Below, piece by piece: positions 9,186 to 46,284 of a DNA stretch of 64,000 nt; position 1 is the first letter of the stretch; each line of letters opens with the position of its first letter. The stretch covers positions 1 to 64,000 of the forward strand of contig CALLKX010000052.1 in the NCBI GenBank assembly GCA_938083085.1, in the 5' to 3' direction. The stretch is from an uncultured bacterium (GTDB lineage Bacteria; Planctomycetota; UBA1135; GCA-002686595). Below the pieces are notes generated by a model. The model saw only the letters and a program-made list of their open reading frames with translations, did not search any database and was not told the DNA's origin. The translations under genes and the position numbers were made by a program.

Positions 9186-11168
9186 ATGCTCCTCGCCCTC
9201 CTCCATCTGGCCCCGTTGATCTCAGCGGGCTCCTCGGTCCTCGATCCGGCCCCAGGGCCCCACCCCCAGGAAGCGCCGCAGGGTGGCGGCTGGGTGGCGC
9301 TTGAGACCTTCGCGACGGCCGAGTTCGGCGAGCGAGGCCTCGAAGCGGCGCGGTTCCTGCGCCAACACCGCCCTGAGCGCGACGCTGCGCTCCCCGCCGA
9401 GCTCCTCACCGAGAACCTCCGCCTCGCTCTCGAGGCGCGCGCCCGCTTCCCCTGGGCGAAGGACATCCCGAAGGAGCTGTTCCTGAACGACGTCCTGCCC
9501 TACGCCACCCTCGACGAGAAGCGTGAGAACTGGCGGCCCATGCTCCTCGAGCTGACCGCCCCGATCGTCGCCGAGAGCAAGACTGCCACGGAGGCCGTTC
9601 AGGCGATCAACCGCGAGCTCTACGACAAGATCAAGGTCCACTACAACACGGGCCGCAAGCGCCCCAATGCCTGCGCGACGGAGTCCATCGAACAGGGTCG
9701 CGCGACCTGTACGGGGCTCACGATCCTCCTGGTAGAGGCTTGCCGCTCGGTTGGCATCCCGGCCCGCGCTGCGGGCGTCTTCCTCTGGCACGACGACCGA
9801 GGTAACCACACCTGGCCCGAGGTCTGGGTGGACGGTCGCTGGCAGTTCACCGGCGCGGACGAGTACGACGCGAAGGGGCTCAACCGCGGTTGGTTCGTGG
9901 CCGACGCGGCCCGGGCCACGGCCGGCGAGGTGAAGCACGGCGTCTGGGCGTCGAGCTGGGCCGCCTCCGGGGCGTCCTTCCCCCTCGCCTGGGCTCCCAG
10001 CGACGCCACGGTGCCCGCCGTAGAGGTGACCTCCCGCTACGTGGGCGACAAGAAGAAGGTGGCGGAGGCCCTCAGCGAGCTGGCAGGGAGCCAGGAGCCG
10101 CTCGGCGAGGAGGCCTCACAGCGCCTCTTGATGGAGATCTGGAAGGGGCGCAAGGAGGCGCTGGCCATGGAACTCTCCGGTGAGGCGGAGGCCAAGGCCT
10201 ATCAAGCCGCCGGCCAGACCCTCCGGGTGAAGGAGCGCGTCTTCGGCGACGCGCCGGAGAGCGGGCACAGCCTGTGGATCTCCATGCACGGCGGCGGCGG
10301 TGCCCCCGCCGAGGTCAACGACGGACAGTGGGAGAACCAGATCAAGCTCTACGAGCCAGCCGAGGGCATCTACGTCGCGCCCCGCGCCCCGTCCGACACC
10401 TGGAACCTCTGGCACCAGGGACACATCGACCCGCTCTTCGATCGGATGATCGCGGCCTACGTGACGCTGCGCGGCGTCGATCCGAACCGGATCTACCTGA
10501 TGGGGTATTCCGCCGGCGGCGACGGCGTCTACCAGCTCGCGCCGCGCATGGCAGACCGCTTCGGCGCCGCCGCGATGATGGCTGGCCACCCGAACGAGAC
10601 CAAGCCTGATGGTCTCCGCAACCTCCCCTTCGCGCTCTTCATGGGCGGCAAGGACGGCGCCTACGACCGCAACAAGATCGCCGCGAGCTGGAAGGACGCC
10701 CTCGCCGGCCTCCAGAAGGCAGACCCCGGGGGCTATGACCATGAGGTGACCATCTTCCCGGAGATGGGCCATTGGATGCAGCGCGAAGACCGGGTCGCCC
10801 TCCCCTGGATGGCGAGTCGGTCCCGCCGCGCCTGGCCGGATCGGGTGGTCTGGCTCCAAGACGACGTCGCCCACGACCGCTTCTACTGGCTCGGCGCCGA
10901 GGAGGCGGACCGCAACCCGCGGGCGCGGGTCGAGGCCGCCGTGGAGGGACAGCAGATCGACATCACCTCCGCCGACGTGACCCGGCTCACCCTCTTCCTG
11001 CACGACCGGCTCATCGACCTCGACAAGGCCATCACCGTCCGTTGGAACGGTGAGGAGGTCTTCAATGGCGAGGTCCAGAGGACCCGCGAGGCCATCGAGG
11101 CCTCTCTCGACGGGCGCCCCGACCCGGCGCTCGGTGCCACCGCCCTGCTCGTGGTCGACCGTCCCTGA
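9186..11168 (+). CDS. Exported transglutaminase-like / alpha-beta hydrolase fusion
   Basis: A 660-residue two-domain protein with a hydrophobic N-terminus that is probably a signal peptide. Residues about 110-240 form a transglutaminase-like cysteine peptidase domain: Cys175 in GRATCTGLT, His208 in GNHTWPEVW and an Asp near 225. Residues about 345-560 form an alpha/beta hydrolase of the esterase/dienelactone-hydrolase kind, with MHGGGG (368-373) as oxyanion loop, the nucleophile elbow GYSAGGD (Ser442) and a late His in EMGHWM. A C-terminal beta-rich region of about 80 residues follows. Both active sites look complete. The fusion suggests release of acyl or peptide chains from a crosslinked substrate outside the cell; the substrate is unknown. 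Confidence 0.82.
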   Translation: MLLALLHLAPLISAGSSVLDPAPGPHPQEAPQGGGWVALETFATAEFGERGLEAARFLRQHRPERDAALPAELLTENLRLALEARARFPWAKDIPKELFLNDVLPYATLDEKRENWRPMLLELTAPIVAESKTATEAVQAINRELYDKIKVHYNTGRKRPNACATESIEQGRATCTGLTILLVEACRSVGIPARAAGVFLWHDDRGNHTWPEVWVDGRWQFTGADEYDAKGLNRGWFVADAARATAGEVKHGVWASSWAASGASFPLAWAPSDATVPAVEVTSRYVGDKKKVAEALSELAGSQEPLGEEASQRLLMEIWKGRKEALAMELSGEAEAKAYQAAGQTLRVKERVFGDAPESGHSLWISMHGGGGAPAEVNDGQWENQIKLYEPAEGIYVAPRAPSDTWNLWHQGHIDPLFDRMIAAYVTLRGVDPNRIYLMGYSAGGDGVYQLAPRMADRFGAAAMMAGHPNETKPDGLRNLPFALFMGGKDGAYDRNKIAASWKDALAGLQKADPGGYDHEVTIFPEMGHWMQREDRVALPWMASRSRRAWPDRVVWLQDDVAHDRFYWLGAEEADRNPRARVEAAVEGQQIDITSADVTRLTLFLHDRLIDLDKAITVRWNGEEVFNGEVQRTREAIEASLDGRPDPALGATALLVVDRP

Positions 11169-23688: not shown

Positions 23689-23703
23689 GCAAGGGCCGTG
23701 CCA
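23689..23703 (-). promoter_or_regulatory. Sigma54 promoter of the fliO operon
   Basis: The minus strand reads TGGCACG-GCCC-TTGC, an exact match to the core TGGCACG-N4-TTGC with the invariant GG (-24) and GC (-12) ten bases apart. Transcription would start near 23677, giving a leader of about 25 bases before the fliO ATG at 23652. Confidence 0.85.
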
Positions 23704-23766: not shown

Positions 23767-23785
23767 GTGTCGCTTAGCCCGACAC
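23767..23785. promoter_or_regulatory. Enhancer (UAS) dyad of the fliO sigma54 promoter
   Basis: GTGTCGC-TTAGC-CCGACAC: a dyad with one mismatched pair in 7-base arms. It matches the element TGTCGC-N5-GCGACA found three times before the other sigma54 promoter of this window. Its centre is about 85 bases upstream of the promoter, a normal enhancer distance. It overlaps the stop codon of the fliT-like gene. Confidence 0.65.
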
Positions 23786-29852: not shown

Positions 29853-31223
29853 GTGGCGCACATCCTGATCGCTGACGATGAGCCGGGGATCCGGACCGGA
29901 CTGGTGGCCATCTGTATGGCCGGCGGCCACAGGACCAGTGAAGCCGGGACCGGAGCCGAGACCCTTCGGGTCGCCGCGGCGGAGCGCCCTGACCTGGTCC
30001 TCCTTGACCTCCGGATGCCCGAGGGCGACGGGCTCGAGGTGCTCCCCAAGCTCGCGGCCATGGACGATGCCCCCGCGGTGGTCATCCTGTCCGGTTTTGC
30101 CGACGTCCGGACCGCTGTCCAGGCCATGCGCCTGGGCGCCGCGACCGTCCTGGAGAAGCCCGTGGACCCCCCCGGGCTGCGTGAGGTCCTGGAGCGGACC
30201 CTGGGCGCGCGCGGGATCAAGGAGGAGCGGGACCGCCTCAGAGAGGAGGTCGCCCAGCTGCGAGCCGGCCCCATCGTCGGTCACTCCGGAGCGATCAAGA
30301 GGGTCATTGAACACGTGGAGCGGGTGGCCGCCACGCCGCGGAGCACCGCCCTGATCACCGGCGAGTCGGGGGTCGGCAAGGAATTGGTCGCCCGGGCCGT
30401 GCACGAGCGAAGCCACCGCGCAGGGGGCCCGTTCATCGCCCTGAACTGCGCTGCGCTGGCCGAGGGACTGCTGGAGGCCGAGCTCTTTGGCTATGAACCT
30501 GGGGCCTTCACCGGCGGGGACCCCAAGGGACGAGATGGGCTGATCAGCGCGGCCAAGGGGGGAACCCTGTTCCTCGATGAGCTCGGCGAGCTCGATCTCG
30601 GGCTCCAGGCGAAGCTCCTCAGGGTCCTCCAGGAACGCTCATTCCGGCGGGTCGGCGGCACCCTGGACCTCACCATGGACGCAAGGGTCGTCGCCTCCAC
30701 CAACCGCGACCTCGGCCGAATGGTGGAGGACGGCGAGTTCAGAGAGGACCTCTTCTATCGCCTCAACGTGTTCTCGATCGTCGTCCCGCCGCTTCGGGAA
30801 CGGACCGAGGACATCGCCGGCCTGGCCTCTCACTTCCTGGGCCAGTTCGCCGAAGAGCTGGGCCGTCCATATATAGGGTTCAGTGACGGGGCCCTCGCAC
30901 GCCTCGAGGCCCACGGCTGGCCTGGCAACATCCGCGAGCTCCGGAACACCGTGGAGCGCGCGGCCATCATGACCAGCGGAGGCGAGGTCGACTCGCGATC
31001 CGTCTCTCTGTCTGAGGGGAAAGAGGCCAGCGGCCAGGGTCGCACCGGCTGGTCCCCTGAGGCGCTCCCCGAGGATCAGCTCTCCCTGGATCGCATGGAG
31101 GCCGCGCTGATCCGCCGGGCGCTCGACGTCACGAGGGGAAATAAGGGGAGAGCTGCGCGCGCCCTCGGGATCCATCGCTCGACTCTCTACAAGAAACTCG
31201 AGGCCTACGACATCGAGGCTTGA
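29853..31223 (+). CDS. Sigma54-dependent response regulator (NtrC/FlrC type)
   Basis: A 456-residue enhancer-binding activator. The receiver domain (1-120) has the acidic pair ADDEP, phospho-Asp in LLDLRMP and the Lys in LEKPVD. The AAA+ domain has Walker A GESGVGKE, the sigma54-contacting GAFTG loop and Walker B GGTLFLDELGEL. The C-terminus is a Fis-type helix-turn-helix (GNKGRAARALGIHRSTLYKK). It starts with GTG. No kinase gene is adjacent. Three TGTCGC-N5-GCGACA dyads and a sigma54 promoter lie immediately downstream of it, making it a prime candidate for the activator of that promoter. Confidence 0.93.
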   Translation: MAHILIADDEPGIRTGLVAICMAGGHRTSEAGTGAETLRVAAAERPDLVLLDLRMPEGDGLEVLPKLAAMDDAPAVVILSGFADVRTAVQAMRLGAATVLEKPVDPPGLREVLERTLGARGIKEERDRLREEVAQLRAGPIVGHSGAIKRVIEHVERVAATPRSTALITGESGVGKELVARAVHERSHRAGGPFIALNCAALAEGLLEAELFGYEPGAFTGGDPKGRDGLISAAKGGTLFLDELGELDLGLQAKLLRVLQERSFRRVGGTLDLTMDARVVASTNRDLGRMVEDGEFREDLFYRLNVFSIVVPPLRERTEDIAGLASHFLGQFAEELGRPYIGFSDGALARLEAHGWPGNIRELRNTVERAAIMTSGGEVDSRSVSLSEGKEASGQGRTGWSPEALPEDQLSLDRMEAALIRRALDVTRGNKGRAARALGIHRSTLYKKLEAYDIEA

Positions 31224-31253: not shown

Positions 31254-31270
31254 TGTCGCGTCGTGCGACA
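31254..31270. promoter_or_regulatory. Enhancer dyad 1 of the cassette promoter
   Basis: TGTCGC-GTCGT-GCGACA, perfect 6-base arms with a 5-base spacer. Centre about 64 bases from that of dyad 2, close to six helical turns, so the sites lie on the same DNA face. Confidence 0.6.
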
Positions 31271-31316: not shown

Positions 31317-31335
31317 GTGTCGCGATCGGCGACAC
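31317..31335. promoter_or_regulatory. Enhancer dyad 2 of the cassette promoter
   Basis: GTGTCGC-GATCG-GCGACAC, perfect 7-base arms with a 5-base spacer. This is the best copy of the motif, about 140 bases upstream of the sigma54 promoter. Confidence 0.7.
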
Positions 31336-31337
31336 GG

Positions 31338-31354
31338 TGCCGCGAGAAGCGACA
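31338..31354. promoter_or_regulatory. Enhancer dyad 3 of the cassette promoter
   Basis: TGCCGC-GAGAA-GCGACA, one mismatch from the motif. Centre 20 bases (about two turns) from dyad 2, which suggests cooperative dimers side by side. Confidence 0.55.
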
Positions 31355-31466: not shown

Positions 31467-31482
31467 TGGCACCGGTCTTGCG
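31467..31482 (+). promoter_or_regulatory. Sigma54 promoter of the 31504 cassette
   Basis: TGGCAC-CGGTC-TTGC with GG and GC ten bases apart, nearly identical in quality to the fliO promoter. Transcription would begin near 31493, about 11 bases before the ATG at 31504, so the leader is very short. Confidence 0.8.
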
Positions 31483-31503: not shown

Positions 31504-32214
31504 ATGGATCAACAACAACAAAACGCGGCCGCCGCGACCCGCACCTCCTCTCGGCGTGACAGCGACTCGCTCACGCTACAGGCAGGACGGCAGCTGCGCT
31601 GGCCCCTCGGCGCGCTCCGCACCCTCCTCGAGGGTCGCCGCGGTGCGGGCCTCGAGGCCGCAGAGCGCGAGTTCACTGAACGGGCCATCGCCGAGCTCCT
31701 CCGCGCCGAGCGCGCCGCGACCGACCTCATTCGTTGGTCCGCCCCTCGGGAGCTTCGGCCGGCGACGTGCAAGCTCTCCCAGCTCGCCTTCAGCCTGTCG
31801 AGCGCGCTCGACCGCCCCCAGCGCCGCCGCTGCCGATTCGTCATCGAGAACGGTGACTCCTCGGTCATGACGGACGGCAGCCTCCTCGTCGAAGGGACTT
31901 CCAGGGTCATCGACCTCGCCCTCGAGTCCTCCGAGGCGACGGATGAGGAGCTCATGGTCCACACCCACGCCGACGAGCAGTGGGCCACCATCAGCCTGAT
32001 CAACGCGGGCTCACGCCACGAGATCCACCCCGCCCAGCACCTCGCCGAGTCGATCCTTCAGCGTGACCTCATCGCCCTCGGTGGCCGAGTCTCCCTTCGC
32101 GACGCCGAGGCTCGACGCTGCGTCGTCCTCTCGCTCCCCCGCGGCGACGGCGGCCTGACCCTCTCCCAGCGAGCTGCGCGACCGCGCCTCGTCCACGTCG
32201 GGGGTGCCGCGTGA
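31504..32214 (+). CDS. Degenerate histidine-kinase-like protein
   Basis: A 236-residue cytoplasmic protein that aligns loosely with a histidine kinase core. A helix with LRWPLGALRTLLEG stands where LRTPLTxI follows the phospho-His, but no His is present. The following ATPase-like domain (about 90-225) has lost the Asn of the N-box and the DxGxG loop. Catalysis is therefore unlikely; a scaffold or inhibitor role is possible. ATG at 31504 is preferred over TTG (31486) and GTG (31492) because those lie at or before the predicted transcription start. It overlaps the next gene by GTGA. First gene after the sigma54 promoter. Confidence 0.65.
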   Translation: MDQQQQNAAAATRTSSRRDSDSLTLQAGRQLRWPLGALRTLLEGRRGAGLEAAEREFTERAIAELLRAERAATDLIRWSAPRELRPATCKLSQLAFSLSSALDRPQRRRCRFVIENGDSSVMTDGSLLVEGTSRVIDLALESSEATDEELMVHTHADEQWATISLINAGSRHEIHPAQHLAESILQRDLIALGGRVSLRDAEARRCVVLSLPRGDGGLTLSQRAARPRLVHVGGAA

Positions 32215-33212
32215 CCAACGCCGAGATCACCATCACCGATAGCCTGACGGTCCTCCTCGCCATGGAGGACGCGACGGTCGCCTACGCGTTCGCAAGCCTC
32301 CTCGAGGCCAACGACCTCCAGGCCGCGACCGCAAATTGCTATGCCGACGCGCTCGCGCTCGCCGGTTGCGACGTGGTCGTCGCCGAGTTTGGTGGTCCCG
32401 CCGGAGCCCTGGACGGCCTCGAGCTCGTTGAGCGCATTCGAGCTGCCGGCCTCAACCCCTACATCGTGCTCGTGGGAATCAACCCAAGCCACGATGACTA
32501 CCGTCGCGCGATCCGTCTTGGGGTCCACGACCTCCTCGAGCGCCCCCTGCTTCCCGAGCAACTCATCGCCGCCGTCGAGGCCGCTGCGGTCTCCGCCGCT
32601 GACGTCGACGAGGACGGAGACGGAGACGAGACGGCGACTCTCGAGCTGATCTTGGCCGCTCATCCCCGCGCCGCCGAGGCCGCCGCCCGCGACCTCATCA
32701 GCTGGGCCGTTCGCTGCGACATCACCCCGGCAGCCCGTGCCCGCATCGGGTCCGCCGTGGCAGAGATCGTCACGAACAGCGTCGAGGCCGGAGCCACGAT
32801 CATCGAGGTCGAAGCCACCATGGGCGCCCGCGCGCTCGAGGTCGAGATCCGAGACGACGGCCCTGGCTTCGACACGGCCGCGGTCCTCGCCGAGGCGGGC
32901 CTGGACGCCACGACCGGGATCGGGCGCGCCCAGGCGCTCTGCGAAGAGCTGCAGATTGCCTCCGAGATGGGCGCGGGCACCGCGGCTCGCATCCGCTTTG
33001 GGGTCAGCGTCCTCGAGTTCGATGACGCCGATCGCATCGACCTCAGCGACCTCGACTTCCTCGCGCCCGGGACCTCCAAGGAACTCATGGCCACGCTCCA
33101 AGAGGACCCGAACGCGCCGGTGATCCTGTCACCCGCCCTCGCCGTCGTGGCGGGTCGGCTGCTCGCCGGACCTGATCCCCGTCGCGCGCTCCAGGCAGCG
33201 CTCTGGAGCTAA
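32211..33212 (+). CDS. Pseudo-receiver fused to GHKL (RsbW-like) ATPase
   Basis: A 333-residue two-domain protein. Residues about 10-115 resemble a response-regulator receiver, but the phospho-acceptor position reads VVVAEFGG, Glu instead of Asp, which could mimic constant phosphorylation. Residues about 145-265 are a GHKL ATPase with an intact N-box (EIVTNSVEAGA), G1 (RDDGPGFD) and G2 (TTGIGRAQAL), similar to RsbW/SpoIIAB-type kinases. A further 70-residue C-terminal tail is unassigned. GTG start overlapping the previous stop. Possible partner-switching kinase acting with the degenerate kinase before it; no anti-anti-sigma gene is in the window. Confidence 0.65.
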   Translation: MTNAEITITDSLTVLLAMEDATVAYAFASLLEANDLQAATANCYADALALAGCDVVVAEFGGPAGALDGLELVERIRAAGLNPYIVLVGINPSHDDYRRAIRLGVHDLLERPLLPEQLIAAVEAAAVSAADVDEDGDGDETATLELILAAHPRAAEAAARDLISWAVRCDITPAARARIGSAVAEIVTNSVEAGATIIEVEATMGARALEVEIRDDGPGFDTAAVLAEAGLDATTGIGRAQALCEELQIASEMGAGTAARIRFGVSVLEFDDADRIDLSDLDFLAPGTSKELMATLQEDPNAPVILSPALAVVAGRLLAGPDPRRALQAALWS

Positions 33213-33218
33213 GAGACC

Positions 33219-34238
33219 ATGAGCACCGACAGACAAGACAACGGGGATGACCTCTTCGACTTCCCCGAGGCCGTCGGGGTGGACAGCTTCGGCTTCGAGC
33301 CGGAGCCGCATGCCGCCCTCGGCGACAGTGCCGCCCACCTGACAGAGAACGGCACCGAGGACTTCGGAGATGTTCGCCAGGTCGAGCCGATCCAGAACCC
33401 GCCGATCCCTGAGGGGATCAGCGACCTCGAGTACGACCTGTTCGACTTCGAATCGGCTTCAAACACCCCGAACGCCCTTCCCCAGAGCACAGCCCCCTTC
33501 GTGACGCCGAGCGACAGCTTCGACGTCGATGAGGCACTTACCGAGCCCTCAAAGGTAGACGTGAACGCGCCTGCCTTCGCGTCGTCGCCCGAGGATGCCG
33601 CAGCTGAGCCTGCACCCGTCAGCGCGGCCGCAGCCACCAAGGAGCCGACGCCGGCGACCCACACAGCTTCCCTCCTCAGCGATCGCGGCCCCCGCATCAC
33701 GCTGCCCGAGGACATGCCCGGCGCGTCTGCCTGGGAGCGCAACCGCTCCCTCGCGGCCCTCGTCGGGTGCTTCCTCCTCATCAATACAGGGATCTTCTTC
33801 CTGGCTCAGCAGGCCAGCGACCGGTTCAACCAGACCATCGCTGACGCCACGGGCCTGATGGCCCAGGTCCTGCTCGACCAGCAAGCGAAGGACGCCCAAG
33901 CCGCCGCTCCGGCGAACGCGGAAGCGAAGGTCGAGCACGTCATCGAGGCCGCTCCGGCCGAGCCTGCGGTAACCGAGGCCATCGAGACCATCGAGACCAT
34001 CGACGACACGATCGTCGAACCCCTTGAGTACGACAACACCCACCAGCTGGGAGTTGCTCGAGCCAAGGCGCTCCTGGAGCAAGGCAAGCCCGAGGAGGCT
34101 CGGATGCTCCTCAACTTCATCCTGGCGAACCGCGATCGGGTCCCGATGCGCAACAGCCTCCGCGAGGAGATCGACTACCTGATCCCCTTCACCTACTTCG
34201 AGCAGGGCAACCTGATCGCGCCGGAGGAAGCCCGATGA
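33219..34238 (+). CDS. Single-pass protein with acidic DLFDF-bearing tail, unrecognised
   Basis: A 339-residue protein with an acidic, disordered N-terminal half (1-170), one membrane segment (about 178-197), an Ala/Glu-rich linker and a C-terminal TPR-like helical region (about 280-339, AKALLEQGKPEEARMLLNFI). The pentapeptide DLFDF occurs twice, at 11-15 and 73-77, each followed by an acidic stretch. By composition the N-terminus is probably cytoplasmic and the helical end periplasmic. It is 6 bases after the GHKL gene and overlaps the next by ATGA. Unknown family; it could couple a cytoplasmic motor or signalling partner to the exported TPR proteins encoded next. Confidence 0.65.
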   Translation: MSTDRQDNGDDLFDFPEAVGVDSFGFEPEPHAALGDSAAHLTENGTEDFGDVRQVEPIQNPPIPEGISDLEYDLFDFESASNTPNALPQSTAPFVTPSDSFDVDEALTEPSKVDVNAPAFASSPEDAAAEPAPVSAAAATKEPTPATHTASLLSDRGPRITLPEDMPGASAWERNRSLAALVGCFLLINTGIFFLAQQASDRFNQTIADATGLMAQVLLDQQAKDAQAAAPANAEAKVEHVIEAAPAEPAVTEAIETIETIDDTIVEPLEYDNTHQLGVARAKALLEQGKPEEARMLLNFILANRDRVPMRNSLREEIDYLIPFTYFEQGNLIAPEEAR

Positions 34239-35761
34239 GCTCTCCCCTCCTGACCGCCGCGGCCTGCCTGTTCGCTGCTCTCAACGTCTCCGCCGCCTCG
34301 GCGCAGGACATCGTCCTCCGGCGCTCCACCGTCACCATCTCCGAGGGGAACGACGGCCCGAGGATCGACGTCAAGGCCGACCGTGTCTCCTTCAAGAGCC
34401 TGATGGCCAAGGTCGCCGCCAAGTCTGGCAGGACCGTCGAGGGAGGCGAGCTGATCAGCCGTGACCCCGAAGTGACCGCGCTGCTGGAGGACGTTGACCT
34501 CCGCGAAGCGCTCCTCATCATCTCCGGCTCTGTCGGTCTTCGCGCCACGCTCCGGAGCGAGACCCTGGTCCTCACCGAGGACCTCGGCCCCTACCCGACC
34601 CGCGAGGAGGTCTACACCCGCGCCGAGTCCTGGTACCTGCGGGCCATGACAGCAGCGCCGAACAGCATCCTGGCCCCCGGCGCCCTCTGGAACCGCGCCA
34701 AGATGTGTCAGGAGCTCCCTGGCGCGGAGGTTCAGGCCGCGGAGCTCTTCACCCAGCTCTTCGAGGACTACCCGAAGTCGGAGCTCGCCCCCCGGGCGCG
34801 CATCGAGGCCAGCTTGGCCTACAGCGAGGCCGGTGCCTGGCGCAAGGCGACCGATGCCCTCCAGCTCCTCCTGCTGAGTCCCTCACCCAAGCCGATTCGG
34901 AGTCGCGCCCGCCGCCTCCTGGCCGAAGCCCTCACCCAACTCGCCGACGAGTCCCAGCCGCAGTCACGCCTCGAGTACGCCCGCCGCGCCCACCTGCAGC
35001 TCGACGTGCTCGATGCCGACCAGGGCGCGACTAGCCCGTCAGAGCGGCGTCGGAGGTACATCATCCGCAGCCGAGCCTTCTCGCTGACCGGTGAGCCCGC
35101 CGAGGCGCTCCGCTACCTCGACCTCGCCCGCGCCAACGGGAGCGACGCTGACGTCGACCCCGAGGTCTCCGAGCTTCGTGCCCGGGCATTCGAGTACGCG
35201 GGTCAGTACGAGAAGGCCGTGCGAGCCTGGCTGATGTACGCAGAGATGACGCAGGGCGCGACCCGAGCGGACGCCCTGCTGCACGCCGCTGAGGCCGCGC
35301 ACACCGGCGGGTCCCACCTCACGGTGATCTCGATCGCCAAGCTCGCCGCGAACTCAGGTGAGGAGACCCTCGCCCTCAAGAACGTCGAGAACAAGGCGCT
35401 CGCCGCGCTCGACCTCCCCGCCCGTCACCTCGAGGCGCTCGATGATGACGACCTCCTGGAGCGTGGCCAACACCTGCTGAGCCGTGGGATGACCGCCGAG
35501 GCCGCCGAGGCCCTGCGCCCCATGTTCGATCGCCGCCAGAGCCTGGCCTCGCCCGAGCTGCGGCTCGAGGTTGGCCTGACCTACTCCCGCGCCCTCTCGC
35601 AGACCGGACGGCTCACCACCGCCGTCTTTGTCCTGCGCAAGACCGCCCAGGAGCAGAACCACCCCGCCGACCGCCGCCGCGTCTACCTCGCTGCCTCGAA
35701 CCTCTTCGAAGAAGCGGGCGAGCTCGACCTGGCCATCAAAGCGCTCGAAGGGCGTCTTTGA
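34235..35761 (+). CDS. Exported protein with STN-like domain and TPR repeats
   Basis: A 508-residue exported protein. A signal peptide ends at ASA before QD (about 23/24). Residues 30-115 resemble the short secretin/TonB N-terminal (STN) domain, with DVDLREALLIISGSVGLRATL as its signature strand-helix. The remaining 390 residues are tandem helical pairs of TPR or Sel1-like spacing (for example TQLFEDYPKSELAPRARIEA, and PAEALRYLDLARANG). STN domains usually sit in periplasmic gates, so a link to an outer-membrane channel or ring is plausible. Overlaps both neighbours; second TPR-type product of the cassette. Confidence 0.65.
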   Translation: MSSPLLTAAACLFAALNVSAASAQDIVLRRSTVTISEGNDGPRIDVKADRVSFKSLMAKVAAKSGRTVEGGELISRDPEVTALLEDVDLREALLIISGSVGLRATLRSETLVLTEDLGPYPTREEVYTRAESWYLRAMTAAPNSILAPGALWNRAKMCQELPGAEVQAAELFTQLFEDYPKSELAPRARIEASLAYSEAGAWRKATDALQLLLLSPSPKPIRSRARRLLAEALTQLADESQPQSRLEYARRAHLQLDVLDADQGATSPSERRRRYIIRSRAFSLTGEPAEALRYLDLARANGSDADVDPEVSELRARAFEYAGQYEKAVRAWLMYAEMTQGATRADALLHAAEAAHTGGSHLTVISIAKLAANSGEETLALKNVENKALAALDLPARHLEALDDDDLLERGQHLLSRGMTAEAAEALRPMFDRRQSLASPELRLEVGLTYSRALSQTGRLTTAVFVLRKTAQEQNHPADRRRVYLAASNLFEEAGELDLAIKALEGRL

Positions 35762-35775
35762 GGAGAGAAGTCCAG

Positions 35776-36663
35776 ATGATGAAATCAATCGGAACCGTCC
35801 AACTCGCCCTCGCCACGGTCTTCGTGGTGCCCGCCGTCACCGGCCAGGACGAGAACGTGAATTCGTTGCAGTCGCAGCTCAGCGCCACGCTGAACTCCCT
35901 CGACTACCTCACGGACCTGCGAGATCGCGCTGCATCCGGCGACCGTACTGCCGTCGGCGCGATCGTCTCGACCACCGAGGCTCCCCGAGATCCGCAGCGC
36001 GCAGGTGGGTCCTACCTGGAGTCCCTCCAGACCGACCTCGCTCGCCTCCGCTTCCAGCTCGACCGACTCCTCGGCACACCCTCCGAGGTCAAGGCCATCA
36101 TGCAGCTCCCCGGCAGCGTCGTCCGCTCCCTGGGCCTGGCTGGCGCCCCGGCCGAGCGCGGCACGAACGGGGGGACCTCAACGGCACCTGAGCAGACGAC
36201 CAACCCCAACGCGAGCACCTCAGGCCTCCAGGCATCGGGCGCCGGTCTGCTCGGAGTGGGCGGGTCGGAGGGCATGAGCACGGCCATGCTCCAGCAGATC
36301 AACTCCGAGCTCCTCCCGCTCGACTCGGTCACCGATTCAGCCCGGCGCCGAGGCGCCGAATCCGTCTCGCTGGAGGGCGACGGCTACATCGCGGCGCCGA
36401 CGCGCCTCGGGCGCCTCTACGTCCGTCGCGGCCGCGCCGCGGAGGCCCTCACGGTCCTCGAGGCGGCCCCCAAGTCACCGGCGCGAACGTACTGGCTTGC
36501 CCGGTCCTATCAGGCGCTCGAGCGCTACGAGGACGCCGCAGACCTGTACCGGAACCTGATCGCTGATCCCGCCGCCGCGGACTTCCAGCGCCAGGCCGAA
36601 CGCGACCTCAAGTTCGTCGACTTCAGCCGGCAGCTCCGCAATGCCGGCGGCACGCCGCGCTGA
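35776..36663 (+). CDS. Exported TPR-containing protein, unrecognised
   Basis: A 295-residue protein with a signal peptide (MMKSIGTVQLALATVFVVPA, cleavage near VTG/QD). A helical segment (about 30-100) is followed by a Gly/Ser/Thr-rich linker (115-185) and C-terminal TPR repeats (about 205-280, GRLYVRRGRAAEALTVLEAA, YQALERYEDAADLYRNL). The start is chosen at ATG 35776 because AGGAGA lies at 35761-35766 and the signal peptide begins there; a TTG at 35758 is possible. Last gene of the cassette before the two-component pair. Confidence 0.65.
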   Translation: MMKSIGTVQLALATVFVVPAVTGQDENVNSLQSQLSATLNSLDYLTDLRDRAASGDRTAVGAIVSTTEAPRDPQRAGGSYLESLQTDLARLRFQLDRLLGTPSEVKAIMQLPGSVVRSLGLAGAPAERGTNGGTSTAPEQTTNPNASTSGLQASGAGLLGVGGSEGMSTAMLQQINSELLPLDSVTDSARRRGAESVSLEGDGYIAAPTRLGRLYVRRGRAAEALTVLEAAPKSPARTYWLARSYQALERYEDAADLYRNLIADPAAADFQRQAERDLKFVDFSRQLRNAGGTPR

Positions 36664-36693: not shown

Positions 36694-37884
36694 ATGTCCT
36701 CCACCAGCCGCACAGCCCTCTCGCTCTCTCCCGAGATGAGCGTCGAAGATGCGATCGCGAGCTTCTCTGCAGTCCTTGAGGACCTGCAGGTGAGCCACGC
36801 GCGCCTCGAAGAGCGCGCGGCCCACGTTGAGGCCGAGCTGTGCGCCGCCAACAAGGAGCTCGCCACCAAGGTCGAGGAGCTCGACGAGGTGAAGTGCCAC
36901 CTTGAGTCCGTGCTCACCTCGATCCCCGCGGGGGTCGTGGTCTACGACGCGGAGGGCCAGGTCCAAGCCGCCAACCGCGCGGCGCTGGAGATCCTCGGCG
37001 CCGACGAACAGGAGATCATCGGCTCGACCGAGTGGAGCGGCCTCGCCGGCCGCGACGCCCACGGGGAGCCCGTCGAGGTGCTCTGCTCAGACGGCGAGAC
37101 CCGCGTCCTGGCGCACCGTTACTCGGAAGTCACGCGGGGCCAGCAGGTGAGCGGCGCCGTCGAAGTGATCGAGGACCAGAGCGTCCTCGTCCGCGCCCAG
37201 GAGCGCATGCACCGCCTCGACAAGACCGCCGCGCTGGGCACCATGGCGGGCGGCATCGCCCACGAGATCCGCAACCCCTTGCACGCGATCCAGGGCTTCG
37301 CCGAGCTCCTGGTACGCGAGTCGGCAGGGGAGACCCGCGCCACCCACCTCGCCACGCGCGTCCGGGAAGGCGTCTTCGAGATCGAGGCCATCGTCGCTGG
37401 CATGCTCGGCATCGCCGGAGACGGCGGCCTCAACCTTGAGGAGTGCGACGTCGCGGACCTGGTCGAGGCGGCCTGCGGGGCCGCCCGACGCCAGTGCGGC
37501 GACTCGAACCGCTGGAACATCGAGGTCGACGTCGACGCGGACGTGCTCATCGCCGACCGCATCAAGGTCCGCCAGGCCCTGCGCAACCTGATCGCCAACG
37601 CCTGCGACGTCCAGCCCGACGGCGGCGCCGTGAGCGTGTCCGCCACGTCCACCGAGAGCGGCGTCGAGTTCCGGGTGAGCGATGCGGGCCCCGGCCTCCG
37701 CCCGCAGGACATCCACCGCCTCTGCGATCCCTTCTTCACGACTCGCGCCGAAGGCACGGGACTCGGCCTCGCGCTCGTACAGCGCGTCGCCCAACTCCAC
37801 GCCGGTGCGTTCGAACCTGACCCCAACGCTGCTGCCTTGGGCGGAGCCTCCTTCGTCCTCACGATTCCGAGCCAACGAGCCTGA
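36694..37884 (+). CDS. flrB: Sensor histidine kinase, FlrB/FleS-like
   Basis: A 396-residue soluble kinase: N-terminal coiled coil (about 20-70), a PAS domain (about 70-165), HisKA with the phospho-His in GGIAHEIRNPLHAIQGFAEL, and HATPase with LRNLIANACD, DAGPGL and GTGLGLALV. There is no membrane segment, as in FlrB and FleS, which act in the cytoplasm on the adjacent response regulator. The gene lies 12 bases before that regulator and 30 after the cassette. Its signal is unknown; in related systems it reads export-apparatus completion. Confidence 0.88.
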   Translation: MSSTSRTALSLSPEMSVEDAIASFSAVLEDLQVSHARLEERAAHVEAELCAANKELATKVEELDEVKCHLESVLTSIPAGVVVYDAEGQVQAANRAALEILGADEQEIIGSTEWSGLAGRDAHGEPVEVLCSDGETRVLAHRYSEVTRGQQVSGAVEVIEDQSVLVRAQERMHRLDKTAALGTMAGGIAHEIRNPLHAIQGFAELLVRESAGETRATHLATRVREGVFEIEAIVAGMLGIAGDGGLNLEECDVADLVEAACGAARRQCGDSNRWNIEVDVDADVLIADRIKVRQALRNLIANACDVQPDGGAVSVSATSTESGVEFRVSDAGPGLRPQDIHRLCDPFFTTRAEGTGLGLALVQRVAQLHAGAFEPDPNAAALGGASFVLTIPSQRA

Positions 37885-37896
37885 TCTCCCTTCCAT

Positions 37897-39303
37897 ATGA
37901 CCCTTCAACGCATTCTGGTCGTCGACGACGAGTCCCTGGCACGCGAGTACCTGGGTGAGGCTGTCACTAGCCTCGGTTACAGCGCCATCAGCGCCAACGA
38001 GGCAACAGCCGCGCTGACCATGATCGAGCGCGAGCAGCCGGACGTGGTCCTCACGGACCTCCGCATGCCCGGGATCGACGGCGTCGAGCTGACGCAGCGG
38101 ATCCAGGAGCGCTGGCCGGACCTCCCCGTGATGCTCTGCACCGCGCACGCCACCGTGGAGTCGGCCGTGGCCGCCATGAAGTACGGAGCCCGCGACGTCT
38201 TGCTCAAGCCGATCTCGATCGACAGCCTCGACTTCTCCCTCAAGCGGCTGCAGCGCGAGCAGAAGCTGGTCGAGGAGAACCGCTACCTCCGCGAGGAGGC
38301 CCGGAGCAGCTCCCCCGACCAGATGATCGCGGCGAGCCCCGCCATGGGAGAGCTCCTTCACTCCGCCGCGCGCGTCGCCCGCTCCAAGGGCACCGTGCTG
38401 ATCACCGGCGCCAGCGGCACCGGCAAGGAGCGAGTCGCGAGCTTCATCCACGCCGCCTCGGAGCGCGCCGAGCAGCCCTTCATCCGGGTCAACTGCGCCG
38501 CCCTCTCCGAGCAGCTCCTCGAATCCGAGCTCTTCGGGCACGAGCGGGGCGCGTTCACGGGGGCTGACAAGCAGCGCCTTGGCCGATTCGAGCTGGCCGA
38601 CGGCGGGACGCTGCTCCTCGACGAGGTCGGGGAGATCTCCGCCGCCATGCAAGCCAAGCTCCTCCGCGTCCTCCAGGAGGACGAGTTCGAGCGCGTCGGC
38701 GGCCAGAAGACCCTCAAGGTCGACGTCCGGGTGGTCGCCTCGACCAACCGTGACCTCGCCGTCGAGGTCGCTGAGGGCCGGTTCCGTGAGGACCTCTACT
38801 ACAGGCTGCACGTCCTGCCCCTGCACATCGCGCCGCTCAACGAACGCCCCGAGGACATCATGCCTATGGCGCAGCGCTTCGCCGACGTCTACGCGAAGCA
38901 GAACGGCCTCCCCACCCCTCAGATCACCGCCGAGGCTGGTGAACGCCTGTGCAGCTGGGGTTGGCCCGGGAACGTCCGCGAGCTCGAGAACGTCATCCAA
39001 CGGGCCGTCATCCTCGGCGCCTCCGACGAGGGAGCCGCCTTGATCGCCGCTGAAGACCTCCTCTTCGGCCCGAACAGCGCGATGAGCACGACCGGCCGGG
39101 TGATCGACCTGGACCTCGAGCACCCCGCGTTCCAGGAGGCCATCGCCAACGAGTCCATGGCCGACGTCGAACGCATCGCGATCCTCTCGACCCTTGAGCG
39201 TACCGGCGGCAACAAGACCGAGGCGGCACGCCGCCTCGGCGTCACCGCCCGCACGCTCTCCAACAAGATGAAGATCTGGCGTCACGCCGGACTGCTCGGC
39301 TGA
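37897..39303 (+). CDS. flrC: Sigma54 activator, FlrC/FleR-like response regulator
   Basis: A 468-residue enhancer-binding protein. Receiver domain with VVDDES, phospho-Asp in LTDLRMP, and Lys in LLKPIS. AAA+ domain with GASGTGKE (Walker A, with Ala replacing the usual Glu or Asp), GAFTGAD, and [13 protein letters not shown]-terminal Fis-type helix-turn-helix ([20 protein letters not shown]). It is the cognate partner of the kinase just upstream and precedes flgB by 10 bases, the FlrBC arrangement that drives mid-stage flagellar genes. It is the second candidate for binding the TGTCGC dyads. Confidence 0.9.
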
Positions 39304-45077: not shown

Positions 45078-45511
45078 CCAGCTTCCGTCTTGGACGCCTG
45101 ATGCGCCTTCGGGAACGTCAGGAGAAGGAGGAGAAGCTCCGCTGGGCCGCGACCTTGAAGGCCGTCTTTGACGCCCGCGAGGATCGAGACGCCGGCCGGG
45201 CAGACCTCGAGCAGGCCCACCGTGACCTGACGGTCGCCCGCGGAGCGGCGCTGAACGCCGGCCGCCGGATGGCGGCCGAGACGACCCTCGACCACCTCAC
45301 CGACCGCAAGCTCGACCAAGAGCAAGCCGTCACCGAGGCCGGCCTGCGCGCTGATGAAGCGCGCGCTCCCTATGACCAGCGTCGGCGCGAAGCCGAAGCG
45401 CTCCGGCGGCTCGAAGAGCGCTGGAAGGCGAGCCGCCGCAAGCGTCGCCGCCGTCGAGAAGACCGAGACCGCCAAGAACACATCGCCCGCCAATCCGGAA
45501 GCTCACAATGA
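45074..45511 (+). CDS. fliJ: FliJ, export chaperone-escort coiled coil
   Basis: A 145-residue, highly charged two-helix coiled coil between fliI and a MotE-like gene. The Arg-rich C-terminus (SRRKRRRRREDRDRQEH) is stronger than usual. Assignment rests on position, length and coiled-coil pattern, since FliJ diverges quickly. Confidence 0.8.
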   Translation: MTSFRLGRLMRLRERQEKEEKLRWAATLKAVFDAREDRDAGRADLEQAHRDLTVARGAALNAGRRMAAETTLDHLTDRKLDQEQAVTEAGLRADEARAPYDQRRREAEALRRLEERWKASRRKRRRRREDRDRQEHIARQSGSSQ

Positions 45512-46284
45512 AGAACGCCCTTAACTACATCACCTACGGCATCTGCGGCGCCGCCATCATGGGCGCGTCGTTCATCGGCTACATCGTCATCAGCGGAACC
45601 CCGGTTCAGGACCTCAAGGGGGTCGGCCCGCTGTTCGCCGGGAACGTCCAGGCCGAGGTCGAGCCCGAGGTCACCCCAGAGGAGATCACCGCACGAGATG
45701 AGCGCGCAGCGGACTCACGCGGGAACCGACAGGTCTTCGCGGACGCCGGGGTTGCGCTCAGCGCCTTCTCGCTGCCGAGCCCGTTCTCGGTCGCTGAATT
45801 GGACGACCTCGAGAAGCGACTCACGACCAAGCTCAGCGCCTTGGAGGCGCGTGAGGGCGATCTAGAGCAACGAGAAGCCGAGGTTGAGCGGACACGTAAC
45901 CACCTCGCTGACCTCGAGGTCGCCCTCGAGCAGCAGCGGTCTGCGCTGCTCGCGCAGAGCGACAACAACGAGGCCCGCGGCGCGGAGCTGGACAACAAGA
46001 GCGGGCAGGTCACCGCCGGGACCACCGAGCTGAAGGCCGATCGCAAGGCCTTCCTGGCAGAGAAGGCCCAGCTCTACGCGGACAACAAGGCGGAGGACGC
46101 GGCCCGGATGCTCGTGAAGGCGGAGGCGCCGATCGGCGCCGCCGAGGTGCTCGTCTTGCTCGACGCCGCTCGCCGGACCGAGCTGCTCGAGCAGATCGAA
46201 ATCCAGCTCCCCGATGAGTTCAAGGCGTACTACGACGCGTTCAACCAGGTCCTGGCTGCGAGGACCGCTGCCAACGCCCGCTGA
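45508..46284 (+). CDS. MotE-like coiled-coil membrane protein
   Basis: A 258-residue protein with one N-terminal membrane segment (about 11-30), a linker, a long coiled coil (about 96-210) and a small C-terminal helical domain (LVKAEAPIGAAEVLVLLDAA) that resembles the MgtE N-domain-like end of MotE. MotE family proteins act in the periplasm as chaperones or structural parts of the stator/motor and are often encoded beside fliJ, as here. Some members were called FliK-adjacent hypothetical. Function inferred from family and position. Confidence 0.65.
   Translation: MKNALNYITYGICGAAIMGASFIGYIVISGTPVQDLKGVGPLFAGNVQAEVEPEVTPEEITARDERAADSRGNRQVFADAGVALSAFSLPSPFSVAELDDLEKRLTTKLSALEAREGDLEQREAEVERTRNHLADLEVALEQQRSALLAQSDNNEARGAELDNKSGQVTAGTTELKADRKAFLAEKAQLYADNKAEDAARMLVKAEAPIGAAEVLVLLDAARRTELLEQIEIQLPDEFKAYYDAFNQVLAARTAANAR

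Follow-up and report, generated by a model that had tools for sequence, protein, structure and literature searches.

A gene cassette at the head of the main flagellar operon of a Planctomycetota lineage, with a conserved core that may form a periplasmic motor scaffold

Known flagellar motors combine an E-ring (FlgY/MotE/FlbB) with spokes (PflA) and a rim (PflB) made of TPR proteins (PMC11870540, PMC13023049). Candidate TPR proteins encoded near flagellar genes, and possibly related to the flagellum, occur in ~52% of flagellated species (PMC11870540). The initial annotation of the locus studied here knew of no described flagellar module with its content. This is right in part: TPR proteins that carry a small N-terminal domain and are encoded beside flagellar genes are recognised (PflA/PflB), and our search of the main texts of open-access papers found no description of this gene set in Planctomycetota, nor any protein-level description of a planctomycete motor.

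We analysed a window of 64,000 nucleotides, i.e., the whole stretch of DNA considered here, which lies on a single contig of a draft genome of 4.58 Mb. Positions 31504-36663 hold five co-directional ORFs (P1 to P5), as first annotated, each overlapping the next or ending a few bases before it. These genes and the features around them are:

29853-31223, + strand: NtrC1, a REC-AAA-HTH sigma-54 activator, a separate unit given for context
31254-31270: dyad TGTCGC-N5-GCGACA, exact
31318-31334: dyad TGTCGC-N5-GCGACA, exact
31338-31354: dyad TGTCGC-N5-GCGACA, one mismatch
31467-31481, + strand: sigma-54 -24/-12 promoter TGGCACCGGTCTTGC, 37 nt before P1
31504-32214, + strand: P1, soluble degenerate histidine kinase (family profile, residue check, dN/dS)
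32211-33212, + strand: P2, receiver, SpoIIAB/RsbW-type GHKL ATPase and helical C-terminus ending in ALWS (Pfam, residue check, Foldseek)
33219-34238, + strand: P3, acidic N-terminus carrying DLFDF, then a single TM helix and a TPR-like C-terminus, the last predicted to be periplasmic
34235-35761, + strand: P4, signal peptide, STN-like domain (residues 31-115), TPR superhelix
35776-36663, + strand: P5, signal peptide, helical segment, variable linker, C-terminal TPR
36694-37884, + strand: FlrB-like PAS-HisKA-HATPase kinase, downstream partner
37897-39303, + strand: FlrC-like NtrC-family activator, downstream partner
45508-46284, + strand: E-ring candidate (MotE/FlgY/FlbB-like) with a TM segment, a coiled coil and an MgtE_N/FliG-like C-terminus, between fliI and motA

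P2 starts with GTG and overlaps P1 by 4 nt; a gap of 6 nt separates it from P3, which in turn overlaps P4 by 4 nt. P5 starts with ATG, and the alternative TTG at 35758 would overlap P4. The start positions of some P3 orthologues are uncertain, and those of P4 were set by alignment. We judged the signal peptides of P4 and P5 from their hydrophobic N-terminus, without a dedicated predictor. A search of PHROGs gave no match for P1, P3, P4 and P5. The cassette is followed by flrB, flrC, flgB, flgC, fliE, fliF and fliG, and on its other side NtrC1 adjoins the divergent flagellin genes. Purifying selection acts on all five genes (dN/dS 0.10-0.44), which, together with an order kept in ~30 genera, places the cassette beyond chance.

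The enhancer array annotated upstream of the cassette is real. The genome has no exact copies of the dyad other than those at 31254 and 31318, both upstream of P1, and exact dyads occur at the same place in four orthologous loci (L021-L024). The pattern with its 5-nt spacer was read off the sequence before counting; with a 6-nt spacer nothing was found. Dyads with up to two mismatches number 12 in the window for 7.1 expected by chance (8 of 100 shuffles). Since this is only weakly above chance, we gave weight to the exact copies and to their position in L021-L024. The dyads are probably activator binding sites; NtrC1, the candidate binder, or FlrC would bind them. There are four strict sigma-54 sites in the 64 kb window for 0.33 expected, a count that is not blind, as the strict pattern was picked after the promoter had been read. 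The better test is the count in orthologues: in 11 of 25 orthologous loci a strict site follows NtrC1 and precedes the first gene of the cassette. These include L030 and L031, in which NtrC1 and the promoter are 2.3-2.8 kb apart, with other genes in between.

Such genes inserted between NtrC1 and P1 were seen in L030 (3386-5700), L031 (3234-5998) and L036 (2584-5603), and none inside the cassette. By reading they look unrelated, i.e., transporter-like, channel-like and protease-like. The NtrC1 orthologues of several genomes (L035, L039, L041, L047, L048) are weak-scoring or shortened, as if eroding. A second strict sigma-54 site of the window lies in the flagellar region on the minus strand (23689-23703), with a one-mismatch dyad 65 bp upstream (23768-23784), in the same arrangement as before P1.

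We found P4 in 34 of the 37 genomes of the family, at one locus per genome. The three genomes without it (G013, G015, G030) also lack FliG, and none of the 37 has FliG without P4. Three genomes have P4 and no detected FliG (G001, G021, G028). Their P4 contigs include flrB/flrC and some of the flgB-fliF run before breaking off early, hence FliG was probably lost in assembly. In the loci that we read, the order NtrC1-[P1]-[P2]-P3-P4-P5-FlrB-FlrC-FlgB is nearly invariant across ~30 genera. P3, P4 and P5 were found wherever a contig covers them, except for a split P3 in L048. The annotated five-gene unit stands for these three genes and not as a fixed five: we did not find P1 in at least six family genomes (L034, L039, L040, L043, L049 and L050), nor P2 in two (L035, L049). 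Because P1 and P2 are sometimes lost and P3-P5 persist, we regard P3-P4-P5 as the core. Likewise, the suggested co-occurrence with flagella across genomes holds for P4, which tracks FliG, and is incomplete for P1 and P2. Synteny, co-occurrence with FliG, and the sigma-54 promoter with its dyads all bear out a flagellar module, and we consider this assignment secure. On the gene orders compared, the cassette is shown to stand first in the main flagellar operon of this lineage of Planctomycetota, with P3-P4-P5 as its invariant core among the flagellated members of the family.

The contig scan for P4 used a closer subset of sequences, the full alignment being too divergent, and gave nine loci. 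The relatives that it retrieved include Planctomycetes bacterium Poly30 (complete genome CP036434). The window genome belongs to the same GTDB genus as this 'Saltatorellus' strain of the Planctomycetota, and the NCBI taxonomy also places the genus Saltatorellus in that phylum. Poly30 is Saltatorellus ferox, a cultured isolate. Members of the Saltatorellus clade have been reported to change cell shape (PMC11481906, PMC11032199).

P4 and P5 were initially described as exported proteins with STN-like and TPR regions. Export and TPRs hold for both, the STN-like domain for P4 only, as P5 has no such domain. The model of P4 (pLDDT 89.7) has an N-terminal alpha/beta domain of STN-like topology followed by helices to its end, and Pfam matches STN in 2 of 32 P4 orthologues. 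The TPR of P5 was found by Pfam. Both proteins match general TPR families only; a match to P4 in L054 was discarded as generic TPR. With P3, they make three exported or anchored proteins, which fits the periplasmic role proposed in the annotation.

On balance, and with ample room for doubt, we favour the reading that P3-P4-P5 form a periplasmic motor scaffold working like the PflA/PflB spokes and rim, with P1 and P2 as non-catalytic relics acting on FlrB/FlrC. P3 would be the inner-membrane anchor, with a cytoplasmic acidic tail carrying DLFDF and a periplasmic TPR-like domain. P4 and P5 would be assembled onto this anchor, in the space from the E-ring/MS-ring to the stators, and would hold the motor in position or stabilise it, which is the role of the spokes (PflA) and the rim (PflB) of Campylobacter. 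We speak of a likeness in working, and not of membership, because P4 differs from PflA in its N-terminal domain and showed no sequence link to it in our searches, and P3 differs from PflB. P4, judged to be exported from its hydrophobic N-terminus, is a TPR superhelix, as is the exported PflA, which in the motor binds FlgY and PflB. It does not have an N-terminal AMIN-like beta-sandwich with a flexible linker: its STN-like domain joins the helices directly. P3 is a TM segment with a short TPR-like C-terminus, and not one with a large TPR domain and a central beta pair, as in PflB. The profile search with P4 gave no PflA chain among the best 60 PDB matches listed. The PDB fold search ranked a chain of the C. 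jejuni motor scaffold seventh (9hmf_K, TM-score 0.31, rmsd 25.7), in an entry described in PMC12222027. From its length of 773 residues this chain would be PflA. Many unrelated TPR proteins score alike, and we take the match as suggestive only.

The same three proteins might instead help to assemble the outer flagellum (P/L-ring, sheath or outer-membrane exit), in the manner of TPR pilotins, CpoB or BamD, and be no part of the finished motor. STN-like domains such as that of P4 are typical of secretins and TonB receptors, the layout of P5 is CpoB-like (signal peptide, helical segment, linker, TPR), and there are profile matches to YbgF/CpoB, BamD and SprE, generic envelope TPR families that match P4 equally well. 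However, these TPR matches are generic, and through P3 the set is attached to the inner membrane; we consider this reading unlikely.

P3 is indeed the single-pass protein with a repeated DLFDF that had been annotated, with one TM helix (residues 178-196) and a conserved, TPR-like C-terminus. Its motifs are encoded at 33249-33263 and 33435-33449, and these are the only two matches of a degenerate DNA pattern for DLFDF in the whole 4.58 Mb draft genome. The N-in topology is a charge-based prediction, with 6 versus 1 basic residues in L044 and a balance in other orthologues. In L048, P3 spreads over two reading frames (9840-10895, minus strand), from a frameshift or an assembly error. P3-P5 and the DLFDF motif stay where P1 and P2 are lost, hence P3-P5 are independent of P1/P2. 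A docking of DLFDF on P1 or P2, which we had considered, is weakened by this persistence.

By itself, P1 has no credible match in Pfam. Its family profile matches in the PDB the histidine kinases KdpD, KinB and ZraS and the pseudokinase DivL. The description of P1 as a kinase-like protein without catalytic residues was confirmed: it has Arg at the phospho-His, Leu at the N-box Asn and Asn at the D-box Asp, i.e., none of the three residues of an active histidine kinase. The phospho-His is lost in 20 of the 22 family sequences and kept in all five outgroup sequences. The dN/dS of P1 (0.16-0.18) is close to that of FlrB (0.14-0.20); P1 is therefore a maintained protein and not a dying gene. P2 is matched by Response_reg (8e-8) and HATPase_c_2 (1.6e-9), in agreement with the annotated pseudo-receiver/GHKL ATPase. 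In the window its receiver Asp is replaced by Glu and its Lys by Arg, so that it has neither residue of a phospho-accepting receiver, and its GHKL Asn and Asp are intact. Among 23 scorable family sequences the Asp position holds E (12), D (7), A (3) or T (1), and in the outgroups always D (5/5). The residues of a GHKL ATPase are kept in the family, the N-box Asn in 25 and the D-box Asp in all of 26 sequences. Foldseek matched the model of P2 (pLDDT 84.0, pTM 0.46) with LvrC over most of its length and with SpoIIAB over the ATPase.

Other families retain the phospho-sites that P1 and P2 have lost. In families f8 (L064, L065), f7 (L066, L067) and f49 (L110) the P1 slot has the phospho-His and the P2 slot both Asp and Lys; of the remaining kinase motifs, the P1 slot has the full set in L066, L067 and L110 but only some in L064 and L065. 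The C-terminal LWS tail of P2 is also found on the receiver-only protein of L110. Phospho-sites that are intact elsewhere and degenerate in the window's family are in line with the annotated signalling relics. The His of P1 and the Asp of P2 are not retained together (L041 has the His, yet Ala in P2). P1 and P2 may be the descendants of an active kinase/response-regulator pair whose phosphotransfer was presumably lost in the window's lineage. By analogy with DivL, they could persist as a binding complex tuning FlrB/FlrC, with P2 still an ATP binder. DivL is a pseudokinase that acts on its partners, and so a precedent for a non-catalytic role. A kinase/receiver slot that is intact in some families, and eroded yet selected in another, offers a series for a two-component pair turning non-catalytic.

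The maintenance of the pseudokinase and the ATPase, the invariance of the cytoplasmic motif of P3, and an operon shared with two kinases/relics and two sigma-54 activators would also suit a regulatory checkpoint. In that case P3-P5 would sense the envelope or flagellar assembly and signal via the DLFDF tail of P3 and P1/P2 to FlrB-FlrC, without building a structure. We find this distinctly unlikely, as several genomes have lost P1 and P2 but keep P3-P5 and DLFDF, and the Pfam layout of FlrB shows no TM segment. It is very doubtful that both roles are joined in a transmembrane checkpoint. Once built, the TPR scaffold would then signal to FlrB-FlrC via the P3 DLFDF and a P1/P2 complex that acts without phosphorylation and takes the place of an ancestral phosphorelay, and these proteins would also make up a motor scaffold specific to Planctomycetota.

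Outside the family, we searched the 29 loci of the phylum and order whose sequence extends 5 kb or more upstream of flgC, using a profile that includes f7 and f8. In 15 of them a P4-type gene of the same orientation precedes flgC by no more than 6 kb, against 3 matches elsewhere in all those loci. TPR profiles cross-match, hence it is the position that carries the argument. Several flagellated Planctomycetota have no P4-type gene at this place upstream of flgC. L110 has the full order NtrC1-kinase-regulator-P3-P4-P5-FlrB-FlrC-FlgB, with P3 and P5 given by weak profile matches backed by position. By reading, the P4-type protein of L073, L076 and L081 is large and has an N-terminal TM-like segment. 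The large TPR protein encoded before flrBC in L076 (6258-9605, + strand) has an acidic N-terminus, EDELFDDLM, reminiscent of DLFDF. That the cassette is an unrelated envelope module merely located in a flagellar locus, as the matches of P4 and P5 to general TPR families only could suggest, is highly improbable given the absence shared with FliG in three genomes, the fixed place across ~30 genera, the sigma-54 promoter and the P4-type genes that other families have in this position.

The preferred P3-P4-P5 scaffold has a possible docking partner in the E-ring protein. The family of the E-ring candidate is matched by MgtE_N in 4 of 12 orthologues (best 6.1e-6) and by FliG_M in 6 of 12, and its PDB profile search gives FliG chains. 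Pfam did not show the domain in the window protein alone, so the E-ring layout of a coiled coil with a C-terminal MgtE_N/ARM-like domain is seen in the family and not in this single protein. The gene is likewise missing from the three genomes without P4. A TPR gene in a constant position upstream of flgBC in many Planctomycetota families and an E-ring gene nearby in the studied lineage are candidate parts of what may be an ancestral E-ring-plus-spokes motor plan.

Of the known systems, DivL-type pseudokinases resemble P1 in retaining the kinase fold with the phospho-His replaced, and DivL is among its PDB profile matches. P1 differs in being soluble and, in the window, in having no ATP-binding motifs either. 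LvrC of Leptospira, a REC-GHKL response regulator, is the best full-length fold match of P2, whereas P2 of the window has no phospho-acceptor Asp, has a conserved LWS tail and stands in another gene context. CpoB/YbgF, BamD and other cell-envelope TPR proteins share with P4 and P5 a signal peptide and TPRs, but their profile matches are weak, far below curated cut-offs, and their operon is different. PflA/PflB of Campylobacterota (PMC11870540, PMC12222027, PMC13023049) likewise pair an exported TPR superhelix, which bears a small N-terminal domain, with an inner-membrane TPR partner; they are linked to the flagellum and come with an E-ring gene. In contrast with them, sequence homology being undetected, P4 has an STN-like and not an AMIN-like beta-sandwich N-domain and lacks a long linker, P3 falls far short of the 820 aa of PflB, and the cassette has P5 as an extra, third TPR protein. 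MotC/MotK of alphaproteobacteria and FlcA-D of Borrelia, which we liken to the cassette by description, are periplasmic partners of the E-ring protein (MotE/FlbB) and are needed for motor function (PMC13023049).
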